Source: Spinacia oleracea
Taxonomy: Eukaryota; Streptophyta; Magnoliopsida; Caryophyllales; Amaranthaceae
DNA length: 64,000 nt
Reading direction: 5' to 3'
Assembly: GCF_020520425.1 (NCBI RefSeq)
Contig: NC_079492.1
Span: 68,501,671 to 68,565,670 of the forward strand
Under the pieces are notes generated by a model. That model ran no database searches and had not been told where the DNA came from. It saw nothing but the letters and a program-made list of their open reading frames with translations. Of this stretch, positions 4,459 through 57,971 are shown in pieces (position 1 is the first letter of the stretch; every line of letters begins with the position of its first letter). A program made the translations under genes and the position numbers.

Positions 4459-4466
4459 GATGGGTG

Positions 4467-4814: not shown

Positions 4815-4824
4815 AGTGGCTACA

Positions 4825-4876
4825 GAGGAAGTCTTGCTCCATAATGGCTTGTGTCCAATCTGGACACAAGTGGGGG
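4825..4876. repeat. MULE-1 left terminal inverted repeat with embedded hairpin
   Basis: It starts GAGGAAGTCTTGCTCCATAA and contains at 4849-4871 a hairpin whose 10-base arms CTTGTGTCCA and TGGACACAAG flank three bases. The right end of the element (18761-18810) has the equivalent sequence with a slightly imperfect hairpin. Confidence 0.85.
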
Positions 4877-5861
4877 CATTATGGTATTTTCACCGTAAAA
4901 AGAGAGAGGCCCACTTGGAAATAACGGACTCCGTTATTCATTGCTGGCAAAAATTTCAGATTTCAAAATTTTTGAATTTGAGGTATTTAATACTCACATT
5001 GTCTCTCTCCTCCTTGTTATTCTCTCTCCTCCTTCAAAGCAGTCCTTCTTCCTCGTGCTCCTCCTGCAGTGAAGACGAGCAAGAAATTCAGATTTCGGGA
5101 ATTTTGGGCAAAAAATTCACACCTCCATTTTCAAGACGAGCTAAAAAATTCACACCTCCATTTTCAAGACGAGCTAGGATTGTTCGTTAATTTGGTGAAT
5201 TCGTGAAAAGCAATTGCGCTGGAGGAAGAATTATTTGTCATCAAGAGGTAAAACCCTAAAACCCAAATCGAAAATTTAAAAAGTTAATGTATTTAGGCTT
5301 ATTGGAGGGTTTAGGGTTGTAATCCTAATTGTTAAAGTCGTCTAATTTTAAGAATTTCTGGGTTTCAGTTAGTTAGGGTTTCTGGTTTAATTGCTGCATG
5401 TTTTAGTTCGTTTATTAATAATCGTTTTTTAATATTTGTTTAGGGTTTTGTAGGCTGTTGGTGGAATTAGGAGTATGAATAATGGTTGTTTTGTAACTGG
5501 GTTTTGATATTTGAACAAATTTGGTATATTTGATGTCGCCTAAATTTTGGAAATTTGTTAAAAATAGTGTTGATAATATGGAGAATAGTACTTAAATATA
5601 GAATTATTTTTAAAAAGGATCATAATTTTATATTGATCCTAAAATGGTACTGAAAGTGTTTGACAGTTTGGTATCGCAAATGAGATTTGGATTGGTAGAT
5701 TTGTACCAAACTGGGTCTAATTACTGGTCTAATTATGTGTGGATGTTTATATGTGTGCATTTTAAAAGTAATTGCAGTGTGAAGTTTTGGAATGTTGTGA
5801 ATTTCTTGTGTTTAGTTTACGTTGTTATTGTAGTCATTAAGTTTTATAATTTTTTAGGAAA

Positions 5862-8800
5862 ATGGGTAAACGTAATGCTCCACTTCCAAAGGAGAAAAAA
5901 ACAGAGGAAGACGTTGTTAAGGGAAAGGGCGTGTCTACAAGGGCAGGAGCACGAACGGTAATTAAGAATGCTATTGTATTAAATAGAAGAATCCAATTCT
6001 AATCCAATTCTATTTTTAATATTCAGACATAAGTAAACTTGTTGTGTTGTGTGTGTAGAGAACAACTGCATGTGGACTAAAGGCAGTGGAAGGTTCTTCC
6101 AGTGGAAAGAAGAGAAAAGTCTATGATGCGGAGATTAGTGGAGAGGAGGAGCCACGTACAGAGAGCAACGATGACGAGGACGTCGTTAGTATTCATAACT
6201 TAACCACTACTATTAGACCGATGGTTTGTTGAATTGTTAACTACCTATTTCATGGATATCTATTTTGTGATTGAAAATTAATCAGAACAAATGTTTATGA
6301 TCAATTCTTACATGGTTTTGATTTAGTGGGCATTGTTGTATGCATCTTAGTTGAGTGTAGGTGCTCAGGTGAAGAAATCGGAGACTGTTGTGTCCACCAG
6401 GCTGAGGAAAGGCATGCATGAGAATGATAGGATTGAGGTGTTTTCAAAGTTGGTGTCACTGTTGGATGACAGTCGAAGGGATTTAGTTAGAAAAATGGGG
6501 TTTGGAGCCCTCCTCACCGTGAAACTGCGCAACCTGTCCCCAGAATTTGCCTACTGGTTAGTGACCAGGGTAGATGGTGCTAATGGGGTGTTTTATGGTG
6601 GGGGCGATATGGAATTCAGCCTGGATCCCATCCAATTTAACTGTGTTTTGGGGCTGCCTATGGGTACTCAGCCTGTACCATCTCTTAATGGAAACCTAGA
6701 CACACGCCATAGGAATATAGCAGACCATATTGTTCAGATGTATGGGGATAGTGGTGGGGTTTCTGTTCAGAAAGCTTGGGAATTTGCAGTTGGGATGAGG
6801 GATGGACAGGGTAAGGCGGTGGCTACTATTGTCCCAATTGTAACAAGAGAGGAGGAATTTGAATTTAGAATAGCCTTTATGATTGTTATACTGGAGCTGG
6901 TGTTGTGCCCAAGCACAGACGGGTTTACCTTGATCAGCATGGAGTTGTTTCTGGATTGGGGGGCTGCAGCCTATTTTTGACGGTTGGTATAACTGAAAAT
7001 ATTTTTATTTATTGTGTATAATTTTGCAAAGCTCTTATTTGATTCTGAAGCAAGTTGGTTAATGTTGTAGGTGTTCTACCTGGACCACCTGAATGTTGTT
7101 CCTAGGCAATGGTGTGTTATGCCGAGGGTGGCTGTGTGGTCCCAATCTGATGTGGATGCCCTGATAGAGGCAGACAAGAAAGCTGGAGGTGACTATGGAA
7201 GAACTCAGGTGAGATGGAATACCAAAAATTTATGTTGTGTTAGTAGTGATTCAGCAGTATAATGATTCATTCATATATGGACTGATGTTTTATTTTGATG
7301 TTCCACAACCAGTCTGTTGATGTTGCTTACGGCGAGAGACACCATCCTCGATTGCCAAGAGATATGCGGGGTTCCTACATTGCAAAAGAGGTTTAATCTA
7401 TTGTTTCTAATCCAATTTGGTTTAATTAGATTATTAGTTGATTAGTTTATAAGTTTCTGGCTTCTGTCCCGCGCGCGCACTAGATATTCTGATTGTGTGA
7501 TTGAAATTTGTATATAGGTTCTGAATGTTTTAACAAGCCGATTTGAGAGAATCGAGGAGCAAATGCACAACCAAGGAGAGGTTTTAAGAAGTATGAAACT
7601 TGATTTGTCAAGAATAGTAGGGGTGAGGGAACAAGATAGTGGGTTGAAGGACACTCAAAGTGGAGGTACAAGTGGTGGTAGTGTGGGTGGTGTGGCTGTT
7701 TGCCCTGCTCTCGGAGGTACGCAGACAATGAGGCCGACCACAATTCCTACGGCCACTGCACAGCAGTTTGGAGTTCCGTCGCCGGTGGGTTTTGCACCGG
7801 CCTTTGGTTCAGCTCGGGGTATTGGCACCCGAGGCTTTGGGTTCCCTCCTCCTTCCACTTCAGTCTCTCCAGTTTTGGTGAGTGATCCTATAACCCCTGG
7901 TCCTTCTTCTGCGGTTACCTCAGATGTTCTTGGATTTATGGCTCCCTCTTCCTCTGATTGTTCTGTCCCTACGAAATCTATGACCACGCTACAGACTGAA
8001 GTACAATCTCCTGCTCAGAAGCCGGTACATTTTCTTACACTACTGTGAATGAACAATCCAAGATATACTTATCTTAGATAATTTTAATGTTGGGTTATAT
8101 ACATATCCAAATTGCACAGGTAATCACCACTGAAATTTTAAAGGGAGTTTCACCTCTTAGGAGCTCCCGGAAGAGTCGTACTGATATGGAGAAGGAATTG
8201 GTTGCTTTCATCAAGGAGTGCCAGGGAAATAGCAAGTAAATGTCAAACTTTTTAGTAAATTATGATTATTAATGTATTTGTATTTTGTTAATGTTTACAA
8301 GTTTTAACTTGGAATACGACAGTTGATTATCCTTCAATTGATCAATATATGCAGGGATGAAGGACCAGAGTTGATTGAGTTCGATGGTTTATGTCTAAGC
8401 AAATATCAGATGTATCGAATGGTAGCAATGGATGAGTATGCGGGGATAGAATACGTCAAAGTGGCTAGTAAGATGTATACTAGCAGGTGGAAGGCAGAAT
8501 TGGGTGCCGGTAGAGGACGAAGTGTAATGCTTGAACCTGGTTTCGGGGTTAGTTTTCAGACGTATTTCTCATCTATGTTATCATGATCTGATAATTTTTT
8601 TGTAAACGTATCTTGAGGTAATTAGTACACCTTCTAATTGTGGCAGGTTAAGGTACAAACAAACGAACCCCCTCAGTCTCTTGTAGCCCCATTCGGTGCC
8701 CCCTTTGAAAACCTCGTCATTCGGGAAATGTTTGTGGTATGTGAGATAACATCACATTCTAAATTAAATACATTTGTGATAATTATTGGTAAATTTTTAA

Positions 8801-9549
8801 TTTACCATTTAACTTATCGTATCTATTTTACAATTCATGCCAGGTTGTAGTACCCGTGTTGCACATGTACTTCACACTTCCACCGCACACACGTTGGTAT
8901 TGTGTTGCATTATCCATGAAGGATAAGCGGATTTGGGTCCTTGATCCTACATCAGACGAGCCTTTGTCTGAGCACGGTCGTCTGATTAGCCACATGGTAA
9001 TGATTGTATCTAAAAACATTTAATAATTATCGCATACATTTCATACATATGATTGACTTGTTATTCTTGTAGTTCAAGTACTTGGACACCCTGTTTTACT
9101 TTAAAGACGAGTCATGGGTAAAGGATGGACTGAGTGGATGGGGGGTTGACCTTGTTTCTGTCCCACCAAGCGATGAGTAAGTAACCCAACGCAATCGCTT
9201 CGCGTAAATATAAGTTGGTTTGTTTATATAAGGATTATATGGTTTGATCACTGTAATGCAGTGTGTCAAGTTGTGTTGTAATGCTAGCATGGATAAAGGA
9301 CATAGTCCAACGCAACAAAATTTCTCCCACATTCCAACCGGTACGTTCATTTAGTTCCATGTGTTTAGTTGTGTGTGTTCTTGAAAACAATAGTCCTGTA
9401 GTAATGCTATCATATTTATTTGCTATCATCATCAGGGTGCAATAGAGGATGCAAGGGTATCACTTGCTGTTGATGACATCTTGTGCGAGTTGAATGTGAG
9501 GAGACCTGAGGTGTACGACCTTATTTCTGGGAGGCAAGTCCGTGTGTAG
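5862..9549 (+). pseudogene. ULP-A of MULE-1: Ulp1-like protein gene, 115-bp deletion
   Basis: Thirteen exons can be read: 5862-5957, 6059-6223, 6369-6982, 7071-7208, 7313-7390, 7518-8024, 8120-8235, 8355-8547, 8647-8736, 8844-8996, 9073-9176, 9262-9340, 9436-9549. All phases agree except exon 3, which is 115 bp shorter than in MULE-2 and shifts frame. The undamaged gene would encode about 853 residues: a basic/acidic N-terminus, a DUF1985-like block (with MGFGALLTVKL), a Ser/Gly/Pro-rich linker in exon 6, and a C-terminal C48 fold. In the C48 part the expected His-Trp is Arg-Trp (RWYCVALS, about R721), Asp is kept (WVLDP, about D738), and the Cys lies in SSCVVMLAW (about C794). So even whole, it may lack peptidase activity. 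It is a paralogue of ULP-B and points towards it. Function in the element is unknown. Confidence 0.8.
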
Positions 9550-10639
9550 ACCGTGTTTACGTGCTTGAACTTAAGTTTTTGGATGTAATTTGGATGTATT
9601 TTGGATGTATTTCGGCAACTCTGTTGCATTTGAATTCTGGTACTTAGTTTGGAAGTTAGTTTGGAAGTTTGTGTGGAAGTTAGTTTATGACCAAACATTT
9701 GATGTTGTATGTTTATATTTCTACTGTGAACTAAGGGGTCTTTTGTTTTAAAGGAATCCAGGTAGAAATAAGATATTTATGCGCCAATTAAGATCCCTGA
9801 TTTGTAGTTATGTATGAAATCAATCAGATAAATGAACACAAGTAGTGAAATGCACACATGTAGTGAAATGCAGGTCAACTTTGGTATACGACATTTGTCA
9901 ACTTTGGTATATGTCATTTGTCAACTTTGGTATGAGTATGACATTTGCCAACTTGGCTTTGGTACAGTTCATGTAGTCCTAAATTCAAGTTTGGTACAAT
10001 GCATTTAACCAGAACTTTGACTTTGGTACGTTTTCATGTCGTAACACGATTTGGTACATTAAATGTAGCCAGAACATCGAATTTGGTACATTAGATGTAC
10101 CAAGAACTTCGACTTCAAGTAAACCCATTATATTTGCTACACTTTTGGCACGATTTGGTACATTAAATGTAGCCAGAACATCGAATTTGGTACATTAGAC
10201 GTACCAAGAACTTCGACTTCAAGTAAACCCATTATATTTGCTACACTTTTGGTGGTGATAATAAGATTTTAAAGTTGCCAAACTTCGTACACTTCTTATT
10301 TGGTACCACCACTTAGGCAAATAATAAAACACTTGACTTTCATTTGACCCACTTTTGGTGGTGATAATAAGATTTTAAAGTTGCCAAACTTCGTACACAT
10401 AATAGGCAAATAATAAAACACTTACAAAGAAAAGAGTTAAGTAAACGATAATAATCCAAAATCAACTAACAAGACCCTTAGATATAAATTATCCGCATAG
10501 CAGTAAAGTGAATTATCCAAAAGCAGCAGTAAACATTACCACCAAAAAATCCGACACAAATCTTAAACATTAGATAATCCGGCTAATAAACAGTTTCCAA
10601 GAGTTACATAATATTACTACGAGAATCATCAGATGACTT
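9550..10639. repeat. Tail-to-tail intergenic region with TTTGGTAC words and local duplications
   Basis: This region separates the 3' ends of ULP-A and ULP-B. From 9886 on it is crowded with TTTGGTA(C/T) and its complement. A segment of about 110 bp carrying TTTGGTACATTAGA is present twice in tandem (about 10030-10250), and a second one carrying GATTTTAAAGTTGCCAAACT is repeated (about 10258 and 10367). The MULE-2 counterpart (30904-31849) has these segments once. No gene is seen. Confidence 0.75.
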
Positions 10640-13600
10640 TCAAGTACAGGTGATTGCTGACAATGCTTCATCCTTTGCTTCATTAAATTCCGAGAGAAAG
10701 TCTTCCATTAGTAGCGCTTTTCGAGCCACAACAATATTTTCCTACAACGATGAATGAATGGTAATAAGGAGCAATATATATGAGGGCTAAATACAAAGCC
10801 ACTTACCATTCCATATCTTGATACGATACGAGCGGCCGATGACTTTATCCATCCCAACATTAGTACGCCGCAGCTATGACTGCAAGAAAACTAGTTGTGA
10901 TTAAATGGGGGAATAAATTTTAAATGACACACAGAATGATTTAAATCCTCTGGTTCACATACTTGTCGGTGTTGTTCATAAGCTCGACTAGTTGTCTTCC
11001 CCAACTACCCATTGTGCCTAGTTCCCACTGGGGGTCATGGACATTTAACATCGTGTCGATGGCCGGGATCTGTGATGTAAAGCATTCACATCAACCCCAG
11101 AAATTGTAGTTTGTAAATGACAATCGGCGTAAAAACTTTGGAAGCAAAACATACCATATTTTTCAGAATAGACTTATGCTTCTCTTCGGGGTTGGGGTAC
11201 ATAGTATCCATGAACCATACGGTCTTCTCCTTCAACTCAAATGCAGCACACCACCAATGGTCATCGTCCAATACAGGAACAAAAATCTGATTCCATCATA
11301 TTACCACAGGAATTATTAGTTATTTGTTTATTCAGAGAACATGTGAAAGGAGAATGTTAAAACTAGGAAAAATACCACACAAATCTGGGATGCAGTTATG
11401 TCACGAAGAGGTTGGCCGTGCTTCTTTGCCAGATGTTCAAAAGGATCCTTATTCGTAATTACCCTCATCTGTAATATAAAATGATGTTCAATAAATATAT
11501 TCTGGTGTAAACCCTAAACACCTAAAACTTAAAAATGTGATTTTAATAATTAAAAATGTGATTTACGAATTCAAACTTAAAAGTGTGATTTAAATAATCA
11601 AAAATGTGATTTAAGGCGTAATAATTCAATTCAAGGCGTAATTACCGCAAATGTTGGGTCAAGCATAATTCTCCGACTCTTGCCTTCGTAATCCATTGCC
11701 CACTTTTTCATATACATCTCCGAAGCCATCCTTACATAGTCAGCACTGACCCTCGCTCTTGTATGCAAGACCCCATAGCAGTCTCTTTGGGTTGCACTCC
11801 TGCCATCGCAGGTAATCATGACTTGTCCTGGACTGCAAAACAGAACTGCTTTAGTTAAGGTATTAAATGAAATGGGATGATATTCTTATAAGTTGATTAA
11901 CTTACTTAGCCTCGTCTCTCAAATCTTTCCATCTCTTAACGAAGGCAGTGATGTCATTAACCGGACCTGTGACCCTTTGGTTTGTACCAGACACGAAATC
12001 TCCCGAAAATACTGCTGCAGATGGAATATGAGTTCGGTGTCCTAAACTTCTCCTCCTCCTTGGTCCTCCTCCTCCAGCAGCGGCCTCTTCATTGTCACGC
12101 GCATCCTCATTCAACTCCTCATCATTGTCACGCGCATCCTCATTCAACTCCTTACTAGTCAATGGGTCGTCCTGATTCAACTCCTTATTGTTCCCAGGAT
12201 CATTCTCGTTATTGGCATGATACTCTTCATGACGTTGTGCTAATACGGATTGAAGAGATTCATTTGCAACTTTGCCAATGACATCAGTAACTGATACTTG
12301 ATGGTGATTGTCAATGTGTAACATATCGTCGACAGCGGCCATCTTCTTGTTGATCTCTTGTTGCTCTGTTTGGGTTCTTTGTGAGGTTGGATTGATTATC
12401 CTTGGACTTCCCAGTTGCTCAAGAGACGTGAATGGTTGATTCAAACCAAGATCAAGATCTTGTATATCGTCAGCAAAATGATGAGCCGGAGAATGGATAT
12501 GGAACTGGTCATGTATGGGAAAGCCAAAGGGTCTTGTGTTGTCCCGTGCCGTTTGCAACTTATCAATCTTCTCCTCCAGCCTCTCTAGGTAAGGTGTGAT
12601 CAACTTCATAATCTGTACCATATATGGAAGATGACCAAATTTTAGTGTGTATACTCGAACGATTTATACAATGTAAAAATATAAATGCGTAGATGAATTA
12701 CATACATTATTTACTAGCCTTGTATCCTCGCAATCCTCATCTTCATCTTCCTGCGAGATGGGTGTAATTTTGTCTCTGGCGAGTCGGGGATGTGGTTCCC
12801 CATATGCAATGTCCAGTGACTGCCACAATAAACATTAAACATTTCCATAAATAATAACCAATAACCAGAATAAGTTTGCTACACATGATTTTAATGTTGT
12901 GTTGTGATTCATTGTAAAAGGATCAACTTACTGATAGCTTTCCGTAGTCGTCAGTTTCCTTCTTGTCCAAATCCCTAGCCAGGAAGACATGCTCAGTTGT
13001 CCAAACTCCTATCCTTGGGAACTCGTTCCACGACAGAGGAGGCCTGTTCAAATGATCTAGGTAGAATATCTGTTCACCAAAATGTTTAATCAAAAATTAT
13101 TTAAATAATACGAAAAGTAACATTCACTATGGGGAAAAAAGGTTTGGAAAAGTACCAAGAGGAACAGGGTACAACCACCACATCCCGCCACGAACCCAGC
13201 TTTGTCAAACTTCTCAGCAAACTCAGAAGACTTAGTCATAAGCCACTCATGGGCAAACGTACACCAATCATATTCAATTGACATGTCTGCCACAGTACAC
13301 GCTTGCATCAAGGGCTTAGACATATATGATCCATCAGTCGAAGGACATATGACCAGACCCAAGAGCGCCATCAAGAAAGCAGTACGGAATTCGCTACGGG
13401 CCGATTCGGTTTCTAGCTGGGTGACGTTGCCATCTTCATCCTCTTCGACTAACGCATCGATGACTGAACGTAAAGAAACCATTTCCTTTCCCTCCCCATT
13501 CACCATTGTGAATTTCCGAGCCACCTTCGCAGCCTTAACAACCAACGTCGGACTATCAACCACGTCGAAGGGAACCGTCTTACCTCCCATTGGGAGATCA

Positions 13601-13929
13601 AATATGCATTTCCATTGTGTTGGAGACAACGGTAAGACTCTGCCATCACCTGCAACCAAGGTCTGGGCAACTCCATCCACCCTAGTCATTAACCAATAGC
13701 AGAACTGTCGCGAGAGTTGGGTCAACTTCAACATTAGCATCCCACCAAAACCCATTTGTTTAACAACTTCAATTCTAGAAGCATCAAACCTTTTGATCAA
13801 CTTCGAAAATGCATCAACACGGCAAATGAATTGGGAATTATTAAATATTCTCCCAATCAATCGGAAATGAATTCCCGCATCACCAACCGAATTGCTTACA
13901 AAAGAAAATCGATATAGATCCGTTGTCAT
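10640..13929 (-). CDS. ULP-B of MULE-1: Ulp1-like (C48) peptidase, rearranged 5' end
   Basis: Predicted SUMO/Nedd8-type cysteine peptidase of a transposon. The C-terminal core carries HWWCAAFELK (catalytic His), FMDTMY (Asp) and HSCGVLML (Cys). Upstream is a DUF1985-like block (MGFGGMLMLKL) and a Glu/Asn/Asp-rich linker with repeated ELNEDARDN. First exon 13156-13929; later exons match MULE-2 one by one down to the TGA at 10640-10642. All appear open, giving about 805 residues. Compared with MULE-2, the first two exons and their upstream sequence (2,831 bp) are gone. The deletion joined, in frame, an ATG-started stretch of about 34 codons from the former upstream region to exon 3 (NSQF|ICRVD). 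The protein thus has a new N-terminus and may have lost its promoter. Whether it is expressed cannot be seen. Confidence 0.75.
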
Positions 13930-14489
13930 TTGTACATATCGGTTATAGGTAATTACTTTAGGGTTTGAGGGTTTAGGGTTAGGGTTAGGTATTTCATTTG
14001 TACATGTCGGTTCTACACATTAAACGTAATGGAAGGGCATAGATTTAATACAACAAAATTAAGTATGGATTACTGCACACTAATTAGGGACTTTTAAAAA
14101 TTAAGTATGGATTAGGGACTTTTAAAAATTGGTACCCTAGTTATTCAAATACAGCCCACGCATGTTGAATTTGTTACATTTGTTGTACCAAATTAGGGTA
14201 TCTTTGTTAAAGATTTTGGAATTTTTGTACCAAATTGGGTTATGTGTGCTGTATTTGGTACAGTATTTGTACCAAATTAGGTTTATTAGTACTTTTTAAA
14301 GCTTGAAGAATGACAGTAAGGATCGCAAAGTTGTGGTAATAACAACACATAAATATAGATTCTATCCCATTCAAACACATACACAGAAACACATACATAT
14401 AGATCATTCAAATATCTGAAATGAACAACAACACATAAACAATTTCATTGTTAAACCTATTTTCCTCTTCATAGTTTTGACTTCGAAAA

Positions 14490-17343
14490 TCACTTATCCC
14501 ACCCAAGAGAATTTCGGCATAAAAGATCATCAACATTGTCAAGTCCAAGTCCATCATCACCAACATCACCAACATCACCAACATCATCTCCTCCAACTAT
14601 GCTGGTGAAATACCCAACTGACCCATCTTGAGATAACATCTCAATACCCCCAGCAGAAGTGTGTGTCAACTCAACATCATCAGCGCCCTGAATAAGAATA
14701 AGTCAAATCAAAGTTAATGGTTTGGACATATGAACTGCAACGAAACAAGTACTATAAATACATTTGTAATACCTGCGTGGGAGGTTCCTGTGAGCAACCA
14801 GCAACATCATTTGTTTTGCTTCTCCTTCTCCTTATGGGTGTTTTCTTTTTTGGCTCAACACAAGAACGGTGCCTACAACTTGGTGTCCTATGTGGTTTAT
14901 TTCTTGCCACAGGATCATTCACCTTGACGTTATCAGGAGGTGTTGCACATTTGTTTCGTTTGTTCACAGACTTAGGGGTACTTTTGGTGGTCCTCTTGTT
15001 TTTGGTTTGACTGCACCCATTGGTAACAGATTTTGGAGTAGTTGCCCTCTTCTTGTTGGTTTGAGACAAACCAGGAGTACCAACATCATCCTGTGTCTCA
15101 TCAGCATCCATATCTTCCACACCAATCAACTGTTGATCCAACCGCTTCTCCAACACCTTCAATGTATCCATCACAATTTTAATGCACTCGGGATTCGTTG
15201 ACGCCTTCAAACTGATTGGCTCGTATGCTAGCATTAATTTATCATGCTTCATGACATCTTCGGTCTTACTTGGATCATGGTACACCACCTTCACGCGCGA
15301 GTGCTTCCTTGACACATCTTTCCTCCATCTACGAAGAATATAAACATCTGGGACATCTTGAATGTCATGCATGTCATACACTTTTATAATGTGCCTGCAA
15401 AGTATACCGTCACTTTCAAACAGCTTGCATTCGCACTCCGCCAATTTAGTCTCCAAATTGAACTGCACAATATAATTCCGCCTGTACTTTGTTGAAAATT
15501 CCTTGCGGGTTTCCTTACACAACACCCACACTCTGTCCTCCAGCTTATGATGTGCAACTTCAGCTGACACCATAGTAGTCTCAAGAGAAGTAAGGTACAG
15601 TACACGATTGCACTGCTCTTGAACCTCGAGGAATTTTGCATCCGTGTACACCTTTCTAAAGGCTCTCTCAACACTAAATTGGGTGGCCAACGGGCGAACT
15701 GCCCTTTGGTCAGCTGCATCAGCCTGTTGCTCATCGTTAGCTCTAGATTCCACTGCTTTAATATAAAATGGAGCAAACTCAAACAATCGTGTGTGCTTAT
15801 CAACGAACCCATCAAAGAACCTGTTTATGCTTTCGGATCTTTGAGTGCTCTTCATTCCAGCCCAAAACATCCCGTTCATAAATGCAGGCACCCACATTTC
15901 CCTTCCATGGTATAATCCTGAAATAGTAGCAAAAGGAAATCAACATAAACAAGTCTTGAACATCTTAAGGTCTGTTTTTTCTGCAGGAAAATGTGTGTCT
16001 ACATGAAAATGTACCATATGGTTTTTTAATTAATGTACCATATATGAAATAATGAAAAGTATAATTATGGAATTACCTGCAAGCCAAATCTCACCCTCCA
16101 GTTTATACTTCTTGATTACATCAGTCCATTGCACTTCAAATTCATTCTTGGTAAGGCTGTTGTAAATCACATTATGAAGCTCAACTTTGAACAGCTCATA
16201 GTCATTGTATTTTCCAAGTTTGTGACTGAACTTGGTAAGTATGTGCCACAAGCACCATCGATGTCGGACATCAGGCATTACTTCTCGTAGGGCCTTCCTC
16301 ATGGCAGCGTCTTGGTCAGTAAGAAAACCAATGGGTTTTTTATTAGACATACATGACAACCACTCGGTAAATAACCATTCAAAGGTCTCTGAATCTTCAT
16401 GGGATAACAATGCACACCCAAGCAGAATGGTTTGACCATGGTGATTAACCCCAACAAAGTTAGAAAATGGCAAGTCATACTCGTTTGTTAAGTAGGTGGA
16501 GTCAAACACTACAACATCTCCAAACTCTTCGTAAGCAGCTCTACTCCTAGCATCTACCCACATCACATCCTTTAATATGTTATCCTCACCCACCCTATGC
16601 TTGTGAAAGAAATTTTCATTGTCAGTAGACATCGCTTTAAAGTACTTCCACATTGCATTCCAATCTCCCTCCTTCATCTTTTCTGCCTTATCCCTAGCAA
16701 TGATGTTTTGAAGATCTTTTTTGGTGAATGTCACGTTCTCAACTCCATTCCTCTCGCTAGCTAGACAGTTAAATATCTGAGGAACGTTAGCACCCGAGTT
16801 GTAGTCATTAAACAACTTCCTCTTTACAAGAGAGGTGATGTCTTCCTGTCGATACCTAGGAACATACCTAGATTTCCTCGGTGTTGGACAATGGTTCTTA
16901 TGCTCATTAACTGCCCTTTTAACCACCCATTCCCCATCCTTGGTCCTGTTGCAATACATTAGAACAGGGCAATCACATTTCTTTGACCTTTTGGTGCCAA
17001 GCTCATCCCTAGTTGAGTAAACCCTTTTCCCCTCAACCCGACGCCTATACACTGCACGACCATAACATTCACACTTCCACAAGTATCCCCTCAGTTCCTT
17101 AGATTTTGCCCCCCCCTTTTGCACATACGACCCTGCAGCACGGAGTATGCCAAATCCTTGTTGTCTCCCATACCTTTTGTAGTACGTATCCACTTCTTCC
17201 CAACTCTGGAATACCATCCCAACAAATGGAGGACTCAGTATATCATCATCGGCTCCATTTTCTTCTTCATCATCCGTAATGTGTACTTCCTCAATTACAT
17301 CCTCAATTACATCCTCATTATCATTCCCAACAAATTCAACCAT
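14490..17343 (-). CDS. MULE-1 transposase (FAR1-MULE-SWIM), open reading frame intact
   Basis: Three exons, 17343-16077, 15917-14773 and 14687-14490, add to 2,610 nt and keep frame, giving 869 residues. The N-terminus is acidic. A FAR1-type DNA-binding region follows at about 35-155, with Cys/His pairs in CECYG, CDCPVLMY and VNEHKNHC. The MULE transposase core has VVVFDSTYLT (Asp281) and FLTDQDAAM (Asp343/345), followed by RHRWCLWHI. After the first splice comes the family motif AGMKSTQRSESINRFFDG. A SWIM zinc finger (ECECK...ILCRHIIKV) lies near 570-590. The basic Thr/Lys/Arg-rich tail is followed by a Gly/Asp repeat in exon 3. It should bind the element's TIRs and cut and join DNA in the nucleus. 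The ATG at 17343 is the first in the frame and is conserved in MULE-2. FAR1/FHY3-like host genes share these domains, but position inside the TIRs argues for a transposase. Confidence 0.92.
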
Positions 17344-18810
17344 ATTTCTGCAACATTTTACATTTCAATTAAGTAAAAACCCCTTTCAAAACCCTAACCC
17401 TAACCCTAACAAAGATTATTTCAGTACCTAAAAATCATTATCCATTCTCAAGGCTTATACATTCCCACTTATTTAATTATCAATACAGATTATTATAATT
17501 CACACTTAATTAATAATCATGCCTCAATTCTTACAAATTACCAATAATTTGTTTTGCTCATAATTTGTTTTGCTCAATTACAAAACTTAATTGCAATTTA
17601 TCAATAACTGATTACCCTAATTCATTAATTGAATATGCAAAATTCATATATTGATTTACATAATTAAGACAAGCACATACCTTAAACTTGCTCAATGATG
17701 TGCGACCAAGTGTTGATTTTTGTAGGAATACCAAATTCAACTCTGCTTTCTTTATCTCTCCTAAAACAATAAACCCCTAAAATTCTTTTTACACTGTACT
17801 TTCTATTTTCCCGCCCTTCTATTTCCATAATTTCCCCCCCTTTTTTGGGATATTTTGGCAGGCCAATAACGTGTCGGAATAAGGGGAACCAATCTCCTCT
17901 GACAAATAGGACCTTGAAAAGGTAAAAAATATTCTCAAGATTTCGTATTATCTTATTGACTTTCTTCGTAAAATTATTATGGTACATAATACGTACCAAA
18001 TATAAATTTTTTTGAATATAGTATTATTTTAATACCAAATATAGTTCATTTCACATTTGGTATAAATAAAATACCTGAATTTATGTCGGGTCGTAAATTT
18101 GGTACATATATCATACTGTTCCCTAAAATCTGGTACGGAATGGTACAACTGAAGTACCAACCTAAGTTTTTAGTATCATATGTTAACTTCTTGGTTACAT
18201 ATCTAAAGTATGGTACATATATAGTACCAATATCTATATTGGTACACATACAGTATATTCTTTTTTTTACCAGTTAATCAATGGTACTTGTTACATCCAA
18301 ATGTAGTATATTTTGTCTTTCATAAATAGATACATTTCCATTTATGAATACATTTTCATCTTCAAGTTAATACTCTTTGAATTTCGACTTTAATTTCAAT
18401 GAAGAACCAAACTTCAAATACATTTTCAATCAGTTGAAAATTGGGAGTATTGGGGTTCTCTATAAGTTGGTACCATCCCTTATCTCCATCTCCCCTTATC
18501 TTTCTCTCTGATTTTGTTCTGGTTTCTTTCTCTCTCCTGTTGAAGCAACAGAGGAACGCTTGCCTTCGAAGGAATTTCGTGGAAATATTTCCCTCCAACT
18601 TTTCGCGAAAATCTTTCCTCCAATTTGGCGAAATTTTCCCACCATGATTTTCCCCCTCAAATTTCAGCACATCCCGTTCCCCGTTACGGTGCAAAAGTAC
18701 CATTCCAGCTCATTTTGGACACTTCTCCTTTAAATTTTAAGCAGTTTATATTTTTATAATGGTACTTGTGTCCATTTTGGACGCAAGCCATTATGGGCTG
18801 AGAAACCCTC
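17344..18810. promoter_or_regulatory. MULE-1 transposase upstream region and right subterminal region
   Basis: It lies between the transposase start and the right TIR. It holds a telo-box-like run (three CCCTAA units, about 17394-17411), AT-rich sequence, and a dense set of GTACCAAAT / ATTTGGTAC words at 17994-18260. Reading frames at 17682-17999 and 18362-18703 recur in MULE-2, but their conservation is no better than that of the surrounding non-coding DNA; I do not call them genes. Confidence 0.55.
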
Positions 18811-19844: not shown

Positions 19845-21333
19845 GAGGGTTTCTCAGCCCATAATGGCTTGCGTCCAAAATGGACACAAGTACCATTATA
19901 AAAATATAAACTGGTTAAATTTTAAAGGAGAAGTGTCCAAAATGAGCTGGAATGGTACTTTTGCACCGTAACGGGGAACGGGATGTTCTGAAATTTGAGG
20001 GGGGAAAACATGGTGGGAAAATTTCGCCAATTTGCTGGAAAGATTTTCGCGAAAAGTTGGAGGGAAATATTTCCACGAAATTCCTTCGAAGGCAAGCGTT
20101 CCTCTGTTGCTTCAACAGGAGAGAGAAAGAAACCAGAACAAAATCAGAGAGAAAGATAAGGGGAGATGGAGATAAGGGATGGTACCAACTTATAGAGAAC
20201 CCCAATACTCCCAATTTTCAACTGATTGAAAATGTATTTGAAGTTTGGTTCTTCATTGAAATTAAAGTCGAAATTCAAAGAGTATTAACTTGAAGATGAA
20301 AATGTATTCATAAATGGAAATGTATCGATTTATGAAAGACAAAATATACTACATTTGGACTTAACAAGTACCATTGATTAACTGGTAAAAAAGAGAATAT
20401 ACTGTATGTGTACCAATATAGATATTGGTACTATATATGTACCATACTTTAGATATGTAACAAAGAAGTTAACATATGATACTAAATTTCAAATTTAGTA
20501 CACTAGAAATACGTTTAAACTTAGGTTGGTACTTCAGTTGTACCATTCCGTACCCGTTTTGAGGGAACGGTATGATATATGTACCAAATTTACGACCCGA
20601 CATAAATTCAGGTATTTTATTTATACCAAAAGTGAAATGAACTATATTTGGTATTAAAATAATACTATATTCAAAAAAATTTATATTTGGCACGTATTAT
20701 GTACCATAATAATTTTACGAAGAAAGTCAATAAGATAATACCAAATCTTGAGAATATTTTTTACCTTTTCAAAGTCCTATTTGTCAGAGGAGATTGGTTC
20801 CCCTTATTCCGACACGTTATTGGCCTGCCAAAATATCCCAAAAAAAGGGGGGAAATTATGGAAATAGAAGGGCGGGAAAATAGAAAGTACAGTATAAAAC
20901 GAATTTTAGGGGTTTATTGTTTTAGGAGAGATAAAGAAAGCAGAGTTGAATTTGGTATTCCTACAAAAATCAACAGTTGGTCGCACATCATTGAGCAAGT
21001 TTAAGGTATGTGCTTGTCTTAATTATGTAAATCAATATATGAATTTTGCATATTCAATTAATGAATTAGGGTAATCAGTTATTGATAAATTGCAATTAAG
21101 TTTTGTACTTGAGCAAAACAAATTATGAGCAAAACAAATTATTGGTAATTTGTAAGAATTGAGGCATGATTATTAATTAAGTGTGAATTATAATAATCTG
21201 TATTGATAATTAAATAAGTGGGAATGTATAAGCCTTGAGAATGGATAATGATTTTTAGGTATTGAAATCTTTGTTAGGGTTAGGGTTTTGAAAGGGGTTT
21301 TTACTTAATTGAAATGTAAAATGTTGCAGAAAT
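19845..21333. promoter_or_regulatory. MULE-2 left TIR, subterminal region and transposase upstream region
   Basis: The TIR carries the hairpin CTTGCGTCC...GGACACAAG (19868-19890). Inside follow many GTACCAAAT-type words (20360-20700) and a short telo-box-like run (about 21275-21292) just before the transposase ATG. The content mirrors 17344-18810. Confidence 0.6.
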
Positions 21334-24198
21334 ATGGTTGAATTTGTTGGGAATGATAATGAGGATGTAATTGAGGATGTAATTGAGGAAGTACACATTA
21401 CGGATGATGAAGAAGAAAATGGAGCCGATGATGATGTAGTGAGTCCTCCATTTGTTGGGATGGTATTCCAGAGTTGGGAAGAAGTGGATACGTACTACAA
21501 AAGGTATGGGAGACAACAAGGATTTGGCATACTCCGTGCTGCAGGGTCGTATGTGCAAAAGGGGGGGGGGGGCAAAATCTAAGGAACTGAGGGGATACTT
21601 GTGGAAGTGTGAATGTTATGGTCGTGCAGTGTATAGGCGTCGGGTTGAGGGGAAAAGGGTTTACTCAACTAGGGATGAGCTTGGCACCAAAAGGTCAAAG
21701 AAATGTGATTGCCCTGTTCTAATGTATTGCAACAGGACCAAGGATGGGAAATGGGTGGTTAAAAGGGCAGTTAATGAGCATAAGAACCATTGTCCAACAC
21801 CGAGGAAATCTAGGTATGTTCCTAGGTATCGACAGGAAGACATCACCTCTCTTGTAAAGAGGAAGTTGTTTAATGACTACAACTCGGGTGCTAACGTTCC
21901 TCAAATATTTAACTGGTCTAGCTAGCGAGAGGAATGGAGTTGAGAACGTGACATTCACCAAAAAAGATCTTCAAAACATCATTGCTAGGGATAAGGCAGA
22001 AAAGATGAAGGAGGGAGATTGGAATGCAATGTGGAAGTACTTTAAAGCGATGTCTACTGACAATGAAAATTTCTTTCACAAGCATAGGGTGGGTGAGGAT
22101 AACATATTAAAGGATGTGATGTGGGTAGATGCTAGGAGTAGAGCTGCTTACGAAGAGTTTGGAGATGTTGTAGTGTTTAACTCCACCTACTTAACAAACG
22201 AGTATGACTTGCCATTTTCTAACTTTGTTGGGGTTAATCACCATGGTCAAACCATTCTGCTTGGGTGTGCATTGTTATCCCATGAAGATTCAGAGACCTT
22301 TGAATGGTTATTTACCGAGTGGTTGTCATGTATGTCTAACAAAAAACCCATTGGTTTTCTTACTGACCAAGACGCTGCCATGAGGAAGGCCCTACGAGAA
22401 GTAATGCCTGATGTCCGACATCGATGGTGCTTGTGGCACATACTTACCAAGTTCAGTCACAAACTTGGAAAATACAATGCCTATGAGCTGTTCAAAGTTG
22501 AGCTTCATAATGTGATTTACAACAGCCTTACCAAGAATGAATTTGAAGTGCAATGGACTGATGTAATCAAGAAGTATAAACTGGAGGGTGAGATTTGGCT
22601 TGCAGGTAATTCCATAATTATATTTTTCATTATTTCATATATGGTACATTAATTAAAAAACCATATGGTACATTTTCATGTAGACACACATTTTCCTGCA
22701 GAAAAAACAGACCTTAAGATGTTCAAGACTTGTTTATGTTGATTTCCTTTTGCTACTATTTCAGGATTATACCATGGAAGGGAAATGTGGGTGCCTGCAT
22801 TTATGAACGGGATGTTTTGGGCTGGAATGAAGAGCACTCAAAGATCCGAAAGCATAAACAGGTTCTTTGATGGGTTCGTTGATAAGCACACTCGATTGTT
22901 TGAGTTTGCTCCATTTTATATTAAAGCAGTGGAATCTAGAGCTAACGATGAGCAACAGGCTGATGCAGCTGACCAAAGGGCAGTTCGCCCGTTGGCCACC
23001 CAATTTAGTGTTGAGAGAGCCTTTAGAAAGGTGTACACAGATGCAAAATTCCTCGAGGTTCAAGAGCAGTGCAATCGTGTACTGTACCTTACTTCTCTTG
23101 AGACTACTATGGTGTCAGCTGAAGTTGCACATCATAAGCTGGAGGACAGAGTGTGGGTGTTGTGTAAGGAAACCCGCAAGGAATTTTCAACAAAGTACAG
23201 GCGGAATTATATCGTGCAGATAAATTTGGAGACTAAATTGGCGGAGTGCGAATGCAAGCTGTTTGAAAGTGACGGTATACTTTGCAGGCACATTATAAAA
23301 GTGTATGACATGCATGACATTCAAGATGTCCCAGATGTTTATATTCTTCGTAGATGGAGGAAAGATGTGTCAAGGAAGCACTCGCGCGTGAAGGTGGTGT
23401 ACCATGATCCAAGTAAGACCGAAGATGTCATGAAGCATGATAAATTAATGCTAGCATACGAGCCAATCAGTTTGAAGGCGTCAACGAATCCCGAGTGCAT
23501 TAAAATCGTGATGGATACATTGAAGGTGTTGGAGAAGCGGTTGGATCAACAGTTGATTGGTGTGGAAGATATGGATGCTGATGAGACACAGGATGATGTT
23601 GGTACTCCTGGTTTGTCTCAAACCAACAAGAAGAGGGCAACTACTCCAAAATCTGTTACCAATGGGTGCAGTCAAACCAAAAACAAGAGGACCACCAAAA
23701 GTACCCCTAAGTCTGTGAACAAACGAAACAAATGTGCAACACCTCCTGATAACGTCATGGTGAATGATCATGTGGCAAGAAATAAACCACATAGGACACC
23801 AAGTTGTAGGCACCGTTCTTGTGTTGAGCCAAAAAAGAAAACACCCATAAGGAGAAGGAGAAGCAAAACAAATGATGTTGCTGGTTGCTCACAGGAACCT
23901 CCCACGCAGGTATTACAAATGTATTTATAGTACTTGTTACGTTGCAGTTCATATGTCCAAACCATTAACTTTGATTTGACTTATTCTTATTCAGGACGCT
24001 GATGATGTTGAGTTGACACACACTTCTGCTGGGGGTATTGAGATGTTATCTCAAGATGGGTCAGTTGGGTATTTCACCAGCATAGTTGGAGGAGATGATG
24101 GACTTGACATTGTTGGTGATGTTGGTGATGATGATGGACTTGGACTTGACAATGTTGATGATCTTTTATGCCGAAATTCTCTTGGGTGGGATAAGTGA
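21334..24198 (+). pseudogene. MULE-2 transposase, frameshifted and missing first catalytic Asp
   Basis: Exons 21334-22605, 22765-23909 and 23995-24198 correspond to those of MULE-1. Exon 1 is 5 bp longer than in MULE-1. A G run at 21561-21572 has 12 G where MULE-1 has 8, and one extra G lies near 21917 (AACTGGTCTAGC against AACTGTCTAGC). Each shifts the frame. In addition the codon for the first catalytic Asp has become Asn (VVVFNSTYLT, about 22180). The second Asp region (TDQDAAM) and the SWIM finger are unchanged. Elsewhere the proteins differ by only a few residues, so the damage is recent. Confidence 0.93.
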
Positions 24199-26941
24199 TT
24201 TTCGAAGTCAAAACTATGAAGAGGAAAATAGGTTTAACAATGAAATTGTTTATGTGTTGTTGTTCATTTCAGATATTTGAATGATCTATATGTATGTGTT
24301 TCTGTGTATGTGTTTGAATGGGATAGAATCTATATTTATGTGTTGTTATTACCACAACTTTGCGATCCTTACTGTCATTCTTCAAGACTTAAAAAGTACT
24401 AATAAACCTAATTTGGTACAAATACTGTACCAAATACAGCACACATAACCCCATTTGGTACAAAAATTCCAAAATCTTTAACAAAGATACCCTAATTTGG
24501 TACAACAAATGTAACAAATTCAACATGCGTGAGCTGTATTTGAATAACTAGGGTACCAATTTTTAAAAGTCCCTAATCCATACTTAATTTTTAAAAGTCC
24601 CTAATTAGTGTCCAGTAATCCATACTTAATTTTGTTGTATTAAATCTATGCCCTTCCATTTTTTTGAACCTGTTTTTGAAAAAATACGTTTAATGTGTAG
24701 AACCGACATGTACAAATGAAATACCTAACCCTAACCCTAAACCCTCAAACCCTAAAGTAATTACCTATAACCGATATGTACAAATGACAACGGATCTATA
24801 TCAATTTTCTTTTGTAAGCAATTCGGTTGGTGATGCGGGAATTCATTTCCGATTGGGAGAATATTTAATAATTCCCAATTCATTTCCGTTTTCTATTGTA
24901 ATGTATTGTAATGTATCCGATTTTGACAATATATTTCTATTTCTGAAAATATTTCAATTTCCGGAAATATTTCCGAGGACTCCGGCAATATTTCAATTTT
25001 CGAAAATATTTTCTGATACGTACCATGTTTCCGTTTCCGGCAACATCTACGTCTTTGATAGGATACGATCCATATTTCCGTTTCCTGGAATACAACCGGC
25101 CTCTAGCTAGGCATACGGTTCACCAACACTTATTAGACTACTTAACCTTAAATGGATACTTGGGCATTATTTCCTTCACATTGACCCTTAACCCTTAGTA
25201 GTTTCGAAGCATTAGGGTGCGTTATGTTCAACTTATTTGACCTGAACTTATCTGAACTTATCTGAACTTACACGTTTCCCACTTTTCCACACCATTTTCG
25301 CACTTTTCTATAAATCATTAATTAAGGTTCAAATAGTAAATAATAAGTAATAATAAATTAATAATATTTAATAATTAATAATTAATAAATAATAAATAAG
25401 TCATTGAATATTGAATAAATAAGTCGTGCAAATAGTAAGCGTAAAGAACATTAAGGAATGTAGGTAGTAATAAATAATTATTAATACATAATAAATAATA
25501 AATAATAAATAATGAATAATAAATAATAAATAATACATAATAAATAATAATACATAATAAAAATAAAATTTAAATAATTAATGTCTATTAATTACTTAAT
25601 AATTATAAGTTAATAATTAATATTTAATAATTATGTAGTGAATAATTGTTATTAATTATTAATTATTAATTATTAATTATTACTTATTAATCAGTAATTA
25701 TTAAGTAATTAATAATTACTAATTAATAATTAATACTTATTTATTAATAATTAATAATTAATTGGAACTAATTGGAATTTATCTGAAGTTATTGGAACTT
25801 ATTGAAACATATTGAAACTTATCTGAATTTATCTGAACGAACTTATTGGACTTGAAACTTATTTTTATAAGGTACCCTTAGTGAACATCTATGTACTGTT
25901 CTCTATGTCCTTTTTTGTAATGGTACCTAGCGTTTGTATAGTTTTGTTAGATACTATCGTCATTTGGTACTTATACTTTTATAAATATGATAGATACTAG
26001 TGAATTTGGTACGTTAAATTTTACAAATATGTCAAGTTCGTACTTTGTCCTTAAAAAATGATTCAACCATTGGGGCTTAAAATTGTCCTTATAGTGTTTT
26101 TTTTATGGGCGGGATATTTGACTAACACTTAAATTTCAAAAAAGTTATTATTCAAAACAAAGACACTTGTCGATTCCACAGTACAAATAACTTAATATTA
26201 AACCCATATTTTAATTTAAAAATAAAATTATTATAGGAAAATCCTTTCTCTCTCCTGTCATTTCTACTTGTGTATTTTCTCTCTCCTGAAGTGTCGCAGT
26301 TCTTCGACTTCCCCACTCCGACTTGCCTTGTCGACGGCGTTCACCAAATCCACCACCCAGGTATCAAAGTCGAAATTTTCTTTACAATTTCAGTATTTCA
26401 ATTTGAATCACTACTTGTTCCCAATTCAATTGTTCCCAATTTCCATTTAGGGTTCCCTAAATGGAATTAACAAATCCATATTGAATTTTGTATGAGTTTT
26501 TGTCGTTAGTTGTATGGTGATTTGACAGTAGTACATAGTAATTGTAGTAAAGTTTATGAGAAGACCCAATTCAAAAGATGTCGTTTATAAATTAGGGTTC
26601 CTAAATTAGGGTTCTTACAAATTGAGTAATGTATGGTTAGTTTTTGCGTTCTTTGTTGGGGAATTGACATCAGTATTGAGTAGTTGTACTCAACTATTTC
26701 TAAAGGCCCAGTTGTACATTTCTCGTTTCTAAATTGGGTTTGGTAAAACTGAAGTGATGTAGTCAAATTGATTACTGTATGGTACTTTTTGTGTCCGTTG
26801 TTGGTGATTTGAGATGCATATAAAGTAATTGTAGTTAACCATTTTGCGTAATGTTTGGTTTTTTTGTGTGTTTGTTGTTGGTAATTTGAGATGAGTATAA
26901 GTATTTGATTTTGTGTCCCTATTTATTATTTTCACAGTGTC
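24199..26941. other. MULE-2 intergenic region with AT-rich insertion-like block
   Basis: The part up to 24880 matches MULE-1 (GTACCAAAT words 24415-24560, CCCTAA run 24726-24755). The rest is unique to this copy. It includes 25205-25880, a block with TGAACTTATCTGAACTTATC-like words at both edges and a long TAATAAT-rich centre (about 25320-25760), probably a degenerate MITE. 26220-26470 looks like an AT-rich leader before ULP-B. No gene is seen. Confidence 0.5.
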
Positions 26942-29900
26942 ATGAGGAAGGGACTAGTTCATAGTCATACGAAGAGAAAAATGGGGAATAATGTCATTGA
27001 ATATGAGGGAACTTCAAAGTCCAAATACAAATAACATAAATCCTTCGGGGACTTTGGGGATGATGAACTGTGTAAGTACTTCACCAGTGACTTGAGTGTA
27101 CTTCCTATTCATAAACCGCCAACGAAAAAGTGTAGGGCGGTCGTAGATGAAGATTCGTACGAAGACGAAAGTCAAGATGAGGGTGATGAGGACTATGAAG
27201 CTGAGGAGACTAACAATGATGAAGTTGAGAATTCTGATGAGGAGTACGATGAAGTGCCAGAGCGAGAGACACATCCAATTAAGAGGGGATACAAACAACA
27301 AGTGTCTCGGAAAATATTACCCAAGCAAGGTGTAAAAAGGAGACGACTTCCTACCCCAAAGCCACGGCCACAGGTAAAGCAATGCAGCAGGAGTGAGTCA
27401 TTGTAATTGGTTCCCCTGTTGATTGGCAAAAATGAATTCTAAATATATTTGTTATTGGTATTCAGGAGCAGCAATACGTTGTGAGAAGAACCAAAGGTCT
27501 GTCAGGTCTGTCAAACGGGGAACAAGTTAAGAGGGAAGAGTTATGTGTTGCGACGCAACTACAAAAATGTCGCAACAAGGTTAGTCAGTGAACTTTATCT
27601 AAATGATGAAACTGTATTCATTAAAATTCAGTGTCCCATTATTCATTTCTAGTTGTACAGGAATGTTTTTTATATGACCATACGCTTTTCATGTTTACAG
27701 CAACCAGCGGTCATTTGCCGTGTTGATGCATTTTCGAAGTTGATCAAAAGGTTTGATGCTTCTAGAATTGAAGTTGTTAAACAAATGGGTTTTGGTGGGA
27801 TGCTAATGTTGAAGTTGACCAACTCTCGCGACAGTTCTGCTATTGGTTAATGACTAGGGTGGATGGAGTTGCCCAGACCTTGGTTGCAGGTGATGGCAGA
27901 GTCTTACCGTTGTCTCCAACACAATGGAAATGCATATTTGATCTCCCAATGGGAGGTAAGACGGTTCCCTTCGACGTGGTTGATAGTCCGGCGTTGGTTG
28001 TTAAGGTTGCGAAGGTGTCTCGGAAATTCACAATGGTGAATGGGGAGGGAAAGGAAATGGTTTCTTTACGTTCAGTCATCGATGCGTTAGTCGAAGAGGA
28101 TGAAGATGGCAACGTCACCCAGCTAGAAACCGAATCGGGCCGTAGCGAATTCCGTACTGCTTTCTTGATGGCGCTCTTGGGTCTGGTCATATGTCCTTCG
28201 ACTGATGGATCATATATGTCTAAGCCCTTGATGCAAGCGTGTACTGTGGCAGACATGTCAATTGAATATGATTGGTGTACGTTTGCCCATGAGTGGCTTA
28301 TGACTAAGTCTTCTGAGTTTGCTGAGAAGTTTGACAAAGCTGGGTTCGTGGCGGGATGTGGTGGTTGTACTCTGTTCCTCTTGGTACTTTTCCAAACCTT
28401 TTTTCCCCATAGTGAATGTTACTTTTCGTATTATTTAAATAATTTTTGATTAAACATTTGGTGAACAGATATTCTACCTAGATCATTTGAACAGGCCTCC
28501 TCTGTCGTGGAACGAGTTTCCAAGGATAGGAGTTTGGACAACTGAGCATGTCTTCCTGGCTAGGGATTTGGACAAGAAGGAAACTGACGACTACGGAAAG
28601 CTATCAGTAAGTTGATCCTTTTACAATGAATCACAACACAACATTAAAATCATGTGTAGCAAACTTATTCTGGTTATTGGTTATTATTTATGGAAATGTT
28701 TAATGTTTATTGTGGCAGTCACTGGACATTGCATATGGGGAACCACATCCCCGACTCGCCAGAGACAAAATTACACCCATCTCGCAGGAAGATGAGGATT
28801 GCGAGGATACAAGGCTAGTAAATAATGTATGTAATTCATCTACGCATTTATATTTTTACATTGTATAAATCGTTCGAGTATACACACTAAAATTTGGTCA
28901 TCTTCCATACATGGTACAGATTATGAAGTTGATCACACCTTACCTAGAGAGGCTGGAGGAGAAGATTGATAAGTTGCAAACGGCACGGGACAACACAAGA
29001 CCCTTTGGCTTTCCCATACATGACCAGTTCCATATCCATTCTCTGGCTCATCATTTTGCTGACAATATACAAGATCTTGATCTTGGTTTGAATCAACCAT
29101 TCACGTCTCTTGAGAAAGTGGGAAGTCCAAGGATAATCAATCCAACCTCACAAAGAACCCAAACAGAGCAACAAGAGATCAACAAGAAGATGGCCGCTGT
29201 CGACGATTTGTTGCACATTGACAATCACCATCAAGTATCAGTTACTGATGTCATTGGCAAAGTTGCAAATGAATCTCTTCAATCCGTATTAGCACAACGT
29301 AATGAAGAGTGTCATGGCAATAACGAGAATGATCCTGTGAACAATAAGGAGTTGAATCAGGACGACCCATTGACTAGTAAGGAGTTGAATGAGGATGCGC
29401 GTGACAATGATGAGGAGTTGAATGAGGATGCGCGTGACAATGAAGAGGCCGCTGCTGGAGGAGGACCAAGGAGGAGGAGGAGTTTAGGACACCGAACTCA
29501 TATTCCATCTGCAGCAGTATTTTCGGGAGATTTCGTGTCTGGTACAAACCAAAGGGTCACAGGTCCGGTTAATGACATCACTGCGTTCGTTAAGAGATGG
29601 AAAGATTTGAGAGACGAGGCTAAGTAAGTTAATCAACTTATAAGAATATGATCCCATTTAATACCTTAACTAAAGCAGTTCTGTTTTGCAGTCCAGGATA
29701 AGTCATGATTACCTGCGATGGCAAGAGTGCAACCCAAAGAGACTGCTATGGGGCCTTGCATACAAGAGCGAGGGTCAGTGCTGACTATGTAAGGATGGCT
29801 TCGGAGATGTATATGAAAAAGTGGGCAATGGATTACGATGGCAAGAGTCGGAGAATTATGCTTGACCCAACATTTGCGGTAATTGCGCCTTGAATTGAAT

Positions 29901-57950: not shown

Positions 57951-57971
57951 TTATTGAACGACTACCTCCCT

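Follow-up and report, generated by a model that had tools for sequence, protein, structure and literature searches.

A family of Mutator-like elements (MULEs) in spinach carries, beside its transposase gene, a tail-to-tail pair of paralogous Ulp1-like genes, only one of which keeps the catalytic His, Asp, and Cys of a C48 peptidase. We analyzed a 64,000-nucleotide stretch of Spinacia oleracea DNA (contig NC_079492.1, positions 68,501,671 to 68,565,670; hereafter the window), which contains two copies of this MULE, elements 1 and 2. We observed directly that the two genes, ULP-A and ULP-B, are paralogues with shared introns, that ULP-A has Arg at the place of the catalytic His kept by ULP-B, that the noncoding DNA holds arrays of the short motif GTACCAAA, and that the two copies are independent insertions. 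The packing of GTACCAAA into the noncoding DNA of a ULP-bearing MULE, partly as tandem repeats, is new here. By analogy with the published VANC and KIU systems, we think there is an even chance that this is an anti-silencing MULE with two paralogous effectors, one of which would no longer be a peptidase.

Results

Each element carries a tail-to-tail pair of paralogous ULP genes

Gene models and protein comparisons (Table 1) confirmed the original prediction of a tail-to-tail paralogous pair in each element. The ULP-A and ULP-B N-terminal blocks are 35% identical over 168 amino acids (E 6e-29), and their C-terminal parts are 29% identical over 257 amino acids (E 1e-32). All 12 ULP-A introns are bounded by GT and AG in both copies, as are the ULP-B introns. 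Every intron of the ULP-B model (nine of nine) has a counterpart of the same phase in ULP-A, where the exon 3/4 junction was taken, for this comparison, from the last 21 nucleotides of exon 3; ULP-A has three additional introns, two of them upstream and the third in the middle region. The ULP-B start codon was our own choice, and further upstream exons are possible. Because introns are retained in both paralogues, we conclude from the gene models that ULP-A and ULP-B are DNA-level duplicates and that retroposition is ruled out.

In three aligned blocks, ULP-A and ULP-B show identities of 0.51-0.55, 0.58-0.68, and 0.32-0.35 at codon positions 1, 2, and 3, respectively, and proportions of nonsynonymous differences (pN) of 0.40-0.48 versus near-saturated proportions of synonymous differences (pS) of 0.71-0.76. 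Judging from this codon-position pattern, both genes were protein-coding and under constraint for long after the duplication; the pattern does not date the loss of the ULP-A active site. The duplication had been predicted to have occurred inside the element: shared introns and homology bear out the duplication itself, and the codon-position and intron data do not decide where it took place. As a separate observation, the variable middle region of ULP-B includes an in-frame 33-bp tandem repeat in exon 4 (12084-12152), with two ELNEDARDN-type units.

Table 1. Positions in the window of the elements, genes, active-site exons, and motif-bearing intervals.
Feature	Position	Strand	Remarks
MULE element 1	4825..18810		10-bp target duplication AGTGGCTACA at 4815-4824 and 18811-18820; limits also traced by homology to element 2
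Left terminal inverted repeat, element 1	4825..4870	+	
Right terminal inverted repeat, element 1	18765..18810	-	
ULP-A, element 1	5862..9549	+	13 exons; exon 3 has lost 115 bp, out of frame, at ~6929
ULP-A exon 10	8844..8996	+	PPHTRWYC (Arg at the place of the ULP-B catalytic His) and VLDP
ULP-A exon 12	9262..9340	+	VSSCVVMLAW; Ser falls on the catalytic Cys when aligned from the shared intron
Stretch between the two gene tails	9550-10639		holds 12 of the 41 GTACCA sites in the element
Noncoding tandem repeats	9874..10252		between the two gene tails; periods 23, 32, 104, with TTTGGTA / TACCAAA
ULP-B, element 1	10640..13929	-	10 exons modeled; open over 808 amino acids; Peptidase_C48 match at residues 615-766
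ULP-B exon 9	10807..10879	-	HSCGVLMLGW, candidate nucleophile
ULP-B exon 7	11155..11286	-	DDDHWWC and FMDT
ULP-B 5' end to MURA 3' end	13930..14751		five GTACCA sites
MURA transposase, element 1	14752..17364	-	open stretches 14752-15939 and 16030-17364; FAR1, MULE, and SWIM domains
MURA 5' end to right terminus	17365..18810		fourteen GTACCA sites
MULE element 2	19845..36682		inverted; 10-bp target duplication CTACATCACC at 19835-19844 and 36683-36692
ULP-B, element 2	24784..30903	+	2.8-kb insertion (about 24886-27716) and nonsense codon
ULP-A, element 2	31850..35667	-	exon 3 has a one-base frameshift, exon 7 a nonsense codon
Third, diverged MULE	50470..57961 (about 50.4-58.5 kb)		related MURA on +, two paralogous genes on -; outer ends not found

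ULP-A has lost its catalytic His

As originally read, ULP-B has the His-Asp-Cys set (DDDHWWC, FMDT, and HSCG) in both copies, and its match to Peptidase_C48 (PF02902) passes the Pfam cut-off (E 9e-7). Using phmmer, the HW(W) and the D of FMD aligned to yeast Ulp1 (1euv), with a weak E of 0.96; the Cys was assigned by motif. When a two-sequence profile of the C48 core was compared with PDB chains, there was no match at E ≤ 10. Six residues ahead of its Cys, ULP-B has an Asn (NNTDNHSCG), at what we take to be the position of the oxyanion Gln of Ulp1/SENP enzymes. ULP-B may be an active peptidase, but because of this Asn its activity is not certain.

ULP-A reads HTRWYC, VLDP, and SSCVV in both copies, with Arg replacing the catalytic His and a seven-residue insertion shortly ahead of the Arg. 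A 523-amino acid C-terminal piece of ULP-A did not match PF02902 at E ≤ 10, and the core alone gave E 0.13, below the cut-off; ULP-A is homologous to ULP-B across the core. The original prediction also described the ULP-A Cys as followed by Val, which is literally correct, but a gap-free count from the shared phase-2 intron (ULP-A/ULP-B residues V/H, S/S, S/C, C/G, V/V, V/L, M/M, L/L, A/G, W/W) puts Ser on the catalytic Cys and the ULP-A Cys on Gly. BLAST and MAFFT pair the two Cys residues by introducing one gap at the Gly. The homology is ambiguous, and we consider Ser at the catalytic position somewhat the likelier assignment since, of the other eight introns in common, seven fall at an aligned position; the eighth (ULP-A exon 7/8 versus ULP-B exon 4/5) is a few residues off, in a poorly aligning hinge. 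With Arg in place of the His, ULP-A is not expected to act as a peptidase, whichever assignment holds. These data support the prediction that one paralogue lost its active site, and the loss may go further than was claimed, since the His is gone and the Cys perhaps as well.

The two copies are independent insertions of one family

Elements 1 and 2 lie ~1 kb apart in inverted orientation. Each is flanked by an exact 10-bp target duplication, different in sequence between the two, and each ends in 46-bp degenerate terminal inverted repeats (TIRs), in which 36 of 46 positions agree between left and right ends and which are identical in elements 1 and 2. Target duplications of MULEs range over ~9-11 bp. 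In addition to the target duplication and TIRs, both elements have the MURA-type transposase with MULE and SWIM domains that characterizes a MULE (domain scores: PF10551, E 9.8e-33; PF04434, E 4.8e-6; PF03101, E 3.9e-7); our MURA coordinates are approximate, as they represent two long open stretches and not an exact exon model. Because their target duplications are separate, elements 1 and 2 are two independent insertions of one family. We also considered, and rejected, the possibility that the copies arose by segmental inverted duplication, as neither the 10-bp target duplications nor the flanks are shared between the elements.

The copies are ~99% identical, with differences at 60 of 7321 coding sites and 88 of 6156 noncoding sites; therefore, the two together count as one observation. 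The original prediction had called the ULP-A loss ancestral on the grounds that both MULE copies have it. The change is indeed in both copies, but with so few coding differences it is established only for their recent common ancestor. As a side observation, noncoding divergence between the copies exceeds coding divergence (Fisher p 0.0009; 5143-18812 compared with element 2), even though the coding changes show no synonymous bias.

Neither element has an intact set of all three genes. Of the accessory genes, ULP-A is damaged in two of two copies, by different lesions, and ULP-B in one of two (element 2). The 2.8-kb insertion in element 2, which contains AT-rich repeats, falls within ULP-B exon 1. 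Relative to element 1, the MURA of element 2 has length differences of 1 bp and 4 bp, and its first part is split into two open frames. After dropping the last 56 nucleotides of ULP-A exon 3, seven ULP-B gap codons, and the stop-bearing codons, we counted 3 synonymous and 14 nonsynonymous changes between the copies of ULP-A (binomial p 0.78) and 6 synonymous and 19 nonsynonymous changes between those of ULP-B (binomial p 0.81), both compatible with neutrality. Such a pattern is as for two dead-end insertions, and it speaks neither for nor against selection on the active lineage.

We looked for relatives of ULP-B, using ULP-B alone as the query, in one genome_contigs and one viral_contigs scan, neither of them a plant collection; these gave 19 and 1 pattern matches, respectively, of which none was confirmed. 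The active/inactive pair had been described as fixed, which is not shown: in this window, it is seen in one lineage.

The noncoding DNA of the element is filled with a short motif

The motif was spotted by eye before k-mers were ranked, and GTACCAAA is the top 8-mer by z-score in the noncoding DNA of element 1. Enrichment was assessed against 200 dinucleotide shuffles, with coding and flank controls. GTACCAAA occurs 15 times in 6590 nucleotides of noncoding DNA versus 0.3 expected, a count reached by none of the 200 shuffles, and is absent from 7397 nucleotides of coding DNA (0.3 expected); in these same sets, GTACCA occurs 35 times in noncoding DNA versus 3.0 expected and 5 times in coding DNA versus 3.1 expected. 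Outside the elements, GTACCA was not enriched at 1-4825 (1 versus 1.4 expected), 18813-19840 (1 versus 0.4), 36683-50099 (3 versus 4.6), or 58700-64000 (1 versus 1.9). With one copy of the 104-bp tandem repeat removed, there were still 13 GTACCAAA versus 0.4 expected. The shuffles and the coding and flank controls exclude chance as the source of the GTACCAAA enrichment in element 1.

Element 1 has 41 GTACCA sites in total. Among these, 2 are found 5' of ULP-A and 2 at the MURA intron; the stretch separating the gene tails has 12, the interval from ULP-B to MURA has 5, and the one from MURA to the right end has 14. In the tail region, the tandem repeats (23, 32, and 104 bp) contain 7 of the 24 TACCAAA sites and 6 of the 41 GTACCA sites of the element. 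Despite ~99% identity between the copies, the array at 9860-10400 spans 541 nucleotides in element 1 and 383 nucleotides in element 2.

A second short sequence, the telo-box-like AACCCTAA, is found 11 times in element 1 noncoding DNA versus 0.33 expected. Its runs are at 13958-13986 (ULP-B leader), 17390-17409 (MURA leader), 5252, 5311, 5373, and 5440 (upstream of ULP-A), and 11510.

A third, diverged MULE also has a pair of accessory genes

The window contains a third MULE whose MURA is 45-60% identical to that of elements 1 and 2 in three aligned stretches (55% over 304 amino acids and 45% over 388 amino acids). It carries two tandem paralogous genes on the minus strand (56966-57961 and 55904-56707), 37% identical over 212 amino acids, neither with a Pfam match at E ≤ 10. 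Its TIRs were not recognized among the 25 longest of 30 repeat pairs. Thus, both MULE families in the window carry accessory genes in paralogous pairs. Between element 2 and the third MULE lies a 171-bp satellite of ~20 copies (39459-42850), to which a 342-bp dimer also fits. Rfam gave no match at gathering scores.

Discussion

Comparisons with published systems refer to the passages of the cited papers that deal with them. In Arabidopsis VANDAL MULEs, the VANC proteins carry DUF1985 (PMC5735166), and VANC21 binds dense short motifs in the noncoding DNA of its own element, where silent marks are stripped (PMC5735166, PMC10398659). VANC targets are tandem repeats and change fast (PMC10398659). 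Some VANCs have captured a Ulp1 domain (KIU) and hypomethylate KIU-VANDALs, according to a 2026 review, which gives the precise role of the Ulp1 domain in plant transposons as unknown (PMC13317346). Because of these parallels, and because the element also matches in its number of genes, its degenerate TIRs, its Ulp1 domain, and its motif arrays, we favor an anti-silencing reading, absent from the original prediction, although we regard the case for it as evenly balanced. Under this proposal, the element would belong, broadly speaking, with the VANDAL/Kaonashi (KIU) MULEs. One ancestral gene, whose product had a conserved block at the N-terminus, a C-terminal Ulp1/C48 fold, and a variable region between them, would have undergone duplication, for which the element lineage itself is the simplest setting, and the two copies would have come to lie tail to tail. 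At least one of the products would be a sequence-specific anti-silencing protein that binds GTACCAAA-type motifs in its own noncoding DNA and, once bound, would remove silent chromatin marks at the arrays, presumably by demethylation, as VANC proteins do. The C48 fold of ULP-A would survive solely as a folding or binding module, and ULP-B may keep some peptidase activity, which would amount to a division of labor.

The element resembles the Kaonashi (KI/KIU) MULEs in combining a MULE transposase with a C48 (Ulp1-like) gene that is borne and multiplied by the element (PMC6117577, PMC2528002, PMC13317346; Hoen et al. 2006 as cited therein), and, as in KI-MULEs, ULP-A is opposite in orientation to MURA. 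It differs in that each element has a pair of C48 paralogues, KIU being described as one among three coding genes; in its 46-bp TIRs, whereas KI-MULEs are non-TIR; and in that one paralogue has lost catalytic residues. With the Arabidopsis VANDAL21, 6, and 1 elements, it shares a three-gene MULE organization, degenerate TIRs, and noncoding tandem repeats of short motifs that change quickly between copies. The motif of VANC21 is YAGTATTAY and not GTACCAAA, a 9-bp target duplication is listed for the VANDAL group versus 10 bp here, and a MULE with no detected ULP gene shares the motif here. The ULP1-bearing MULEs of melon, rice, and grapevine (van Leeuwen 2007; Benjak 2008) include TIR and non-TIR elements with ULP in either orientation, downstream of the transposase, and the section of PMC2528002 on them describes neither a ULP gene pair nor an active/inactive pairing. 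At the level of titles and abstracts, we found no report of an active/inactive ULP pair within one MULE.

Several observations weigh against the anti-silencing reading. Helical periodicity is said to be a feature of such motifs (Sasaki and colleagues, in a 2022 abstract), and helical spacing of our motif was not significant in element 1 (137 of 2000) or the third element (142 of 2000) when one tandem copy was omitted. The 2.8-kb insertion in element 2 is itself mildly GTACCA-enriched (5 versus 1.3 expected, 2 of 200 shuffles), and most GTACCA sites of element 1 (35 of 41) fall outside the tail-region tandem repeats, whereas tandem repetition is a described property of VANC targets. The N blocks had been predicted to be DUF1985-like, a label that did not survive: in contrast to VANC proteins, the N blocks of both ULP-A and ULP-B were unmatched by Pfam DUF1985 (PF09331) at E ≤ 10, although remote homology is possible. 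An AlphaFold2 model of the N block had a mean predicted local distance difference test score (pLDDT) of 34.7, and its fold was unusable. Because DUF1985 is unmatched, we do not class these proteins as VANCs; the element looks built to work like one that encodes them. The strongest point comes from the third MULE, whose noncoding DNA (3023 nucleotides) has 12 GTACCA versus 2.4 expected and 6 GTACCAAA versus 0.2 expected, in a post hoc test for which the region and its coding stretches were drawn after the motif cluster had been seen. In this MULE, tblastn detected no ULP gene at E ≤ 1e-3. Since it nevertheless has the motif, MURA or a host factor may be what reads it; if both elements have a reader protein in common, MURA is the most obvious choice.

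Carried further, that argument would leave the GTACCAAA arrays unrelated to the ULP genes and make the ULP pair a transduplicated passenger, an alternative that we consider unlikely but that deserves serious attention. The third MULE supplies what it needs, namely a MURA relative and the motif, and maize MuDR MURA induces hypomethylation of TIRs (PMC10398659). However, 31 of the 41 GTACCA sites are intergenic (between the gene tails, in the gap between ULP-B and MURA, and 5' of MURA) and partly tandem, and published VANC targets are noncoding tandem repeats (PMC10398659); moreover, the accessory pair of the third element might serve the same motif.

We also doubt that ULP-A is simply a decaying gene whose C48 site degenerated once its use was lost, with the shared changes inherited from a recent decayed master. 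Different lesions do break both copies of ULP-A, and its copy-to-copy changes (3 synonymous, 14 nonsynonymous) would fit. Apart from these copy-specific lesions, however, the exons are in frame, all 12 introns keep GT-AG in both copies, and the codon positions point to long-term constraint. ULP-B, which is equally neutral between the copies (6 and 19) and broken in one of two, indicates that decay after insertion is not special to ULP-A.

Decidedly improbable, in our view, is a reading built on the binding, decoy, or heterodimer role against host SUMO that the original prediction suggested, in which ULP-B is an active peptidase cleaving SUMO or a SUMO-like protein on silencing factors, with ULP-A as a SUMO-binding decoy or heterodimer partner of ULP-B: ULP-B retains His-Asp-Cys, whereas ULP-A lacks at least the His, and both genes were constrained after duplication, but ULP-B has Asn at the presumed oxyanion Gln position, and a review of plant ULPs holds that KIUs are unlikely to act on SUMO (PMC6117577). 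The published VANC/KIU anti-silencing frame is better supported than this SUMO decoy or heterodimer.

A more specific form of the anti-silencing proposal is that the duplicated proteins share the work, one as a peptidase and the other as a dead C48 fold kept by selection, and jointly read the GTACCAAA array; we regard this as speculative and probably wrong in at least some part. Ulp1 domains recur in plant transposons, where their function is given as unknown (PMC13317346). If the shared-labor proposal were true, the dead C48 fold would be a selected module for binding DNA, SUMO, or a partner, and this would account for the persistence of Ulp1 domains in plant MULEs with no known enzymatic role. 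The matched pair, with and without a working-looking active site, represents a natural experiment on the need for peptidase activity, and the GTACCAAA arrays provide a concrete and cheap candidate binding target with which an anti-silencing role could be tested.

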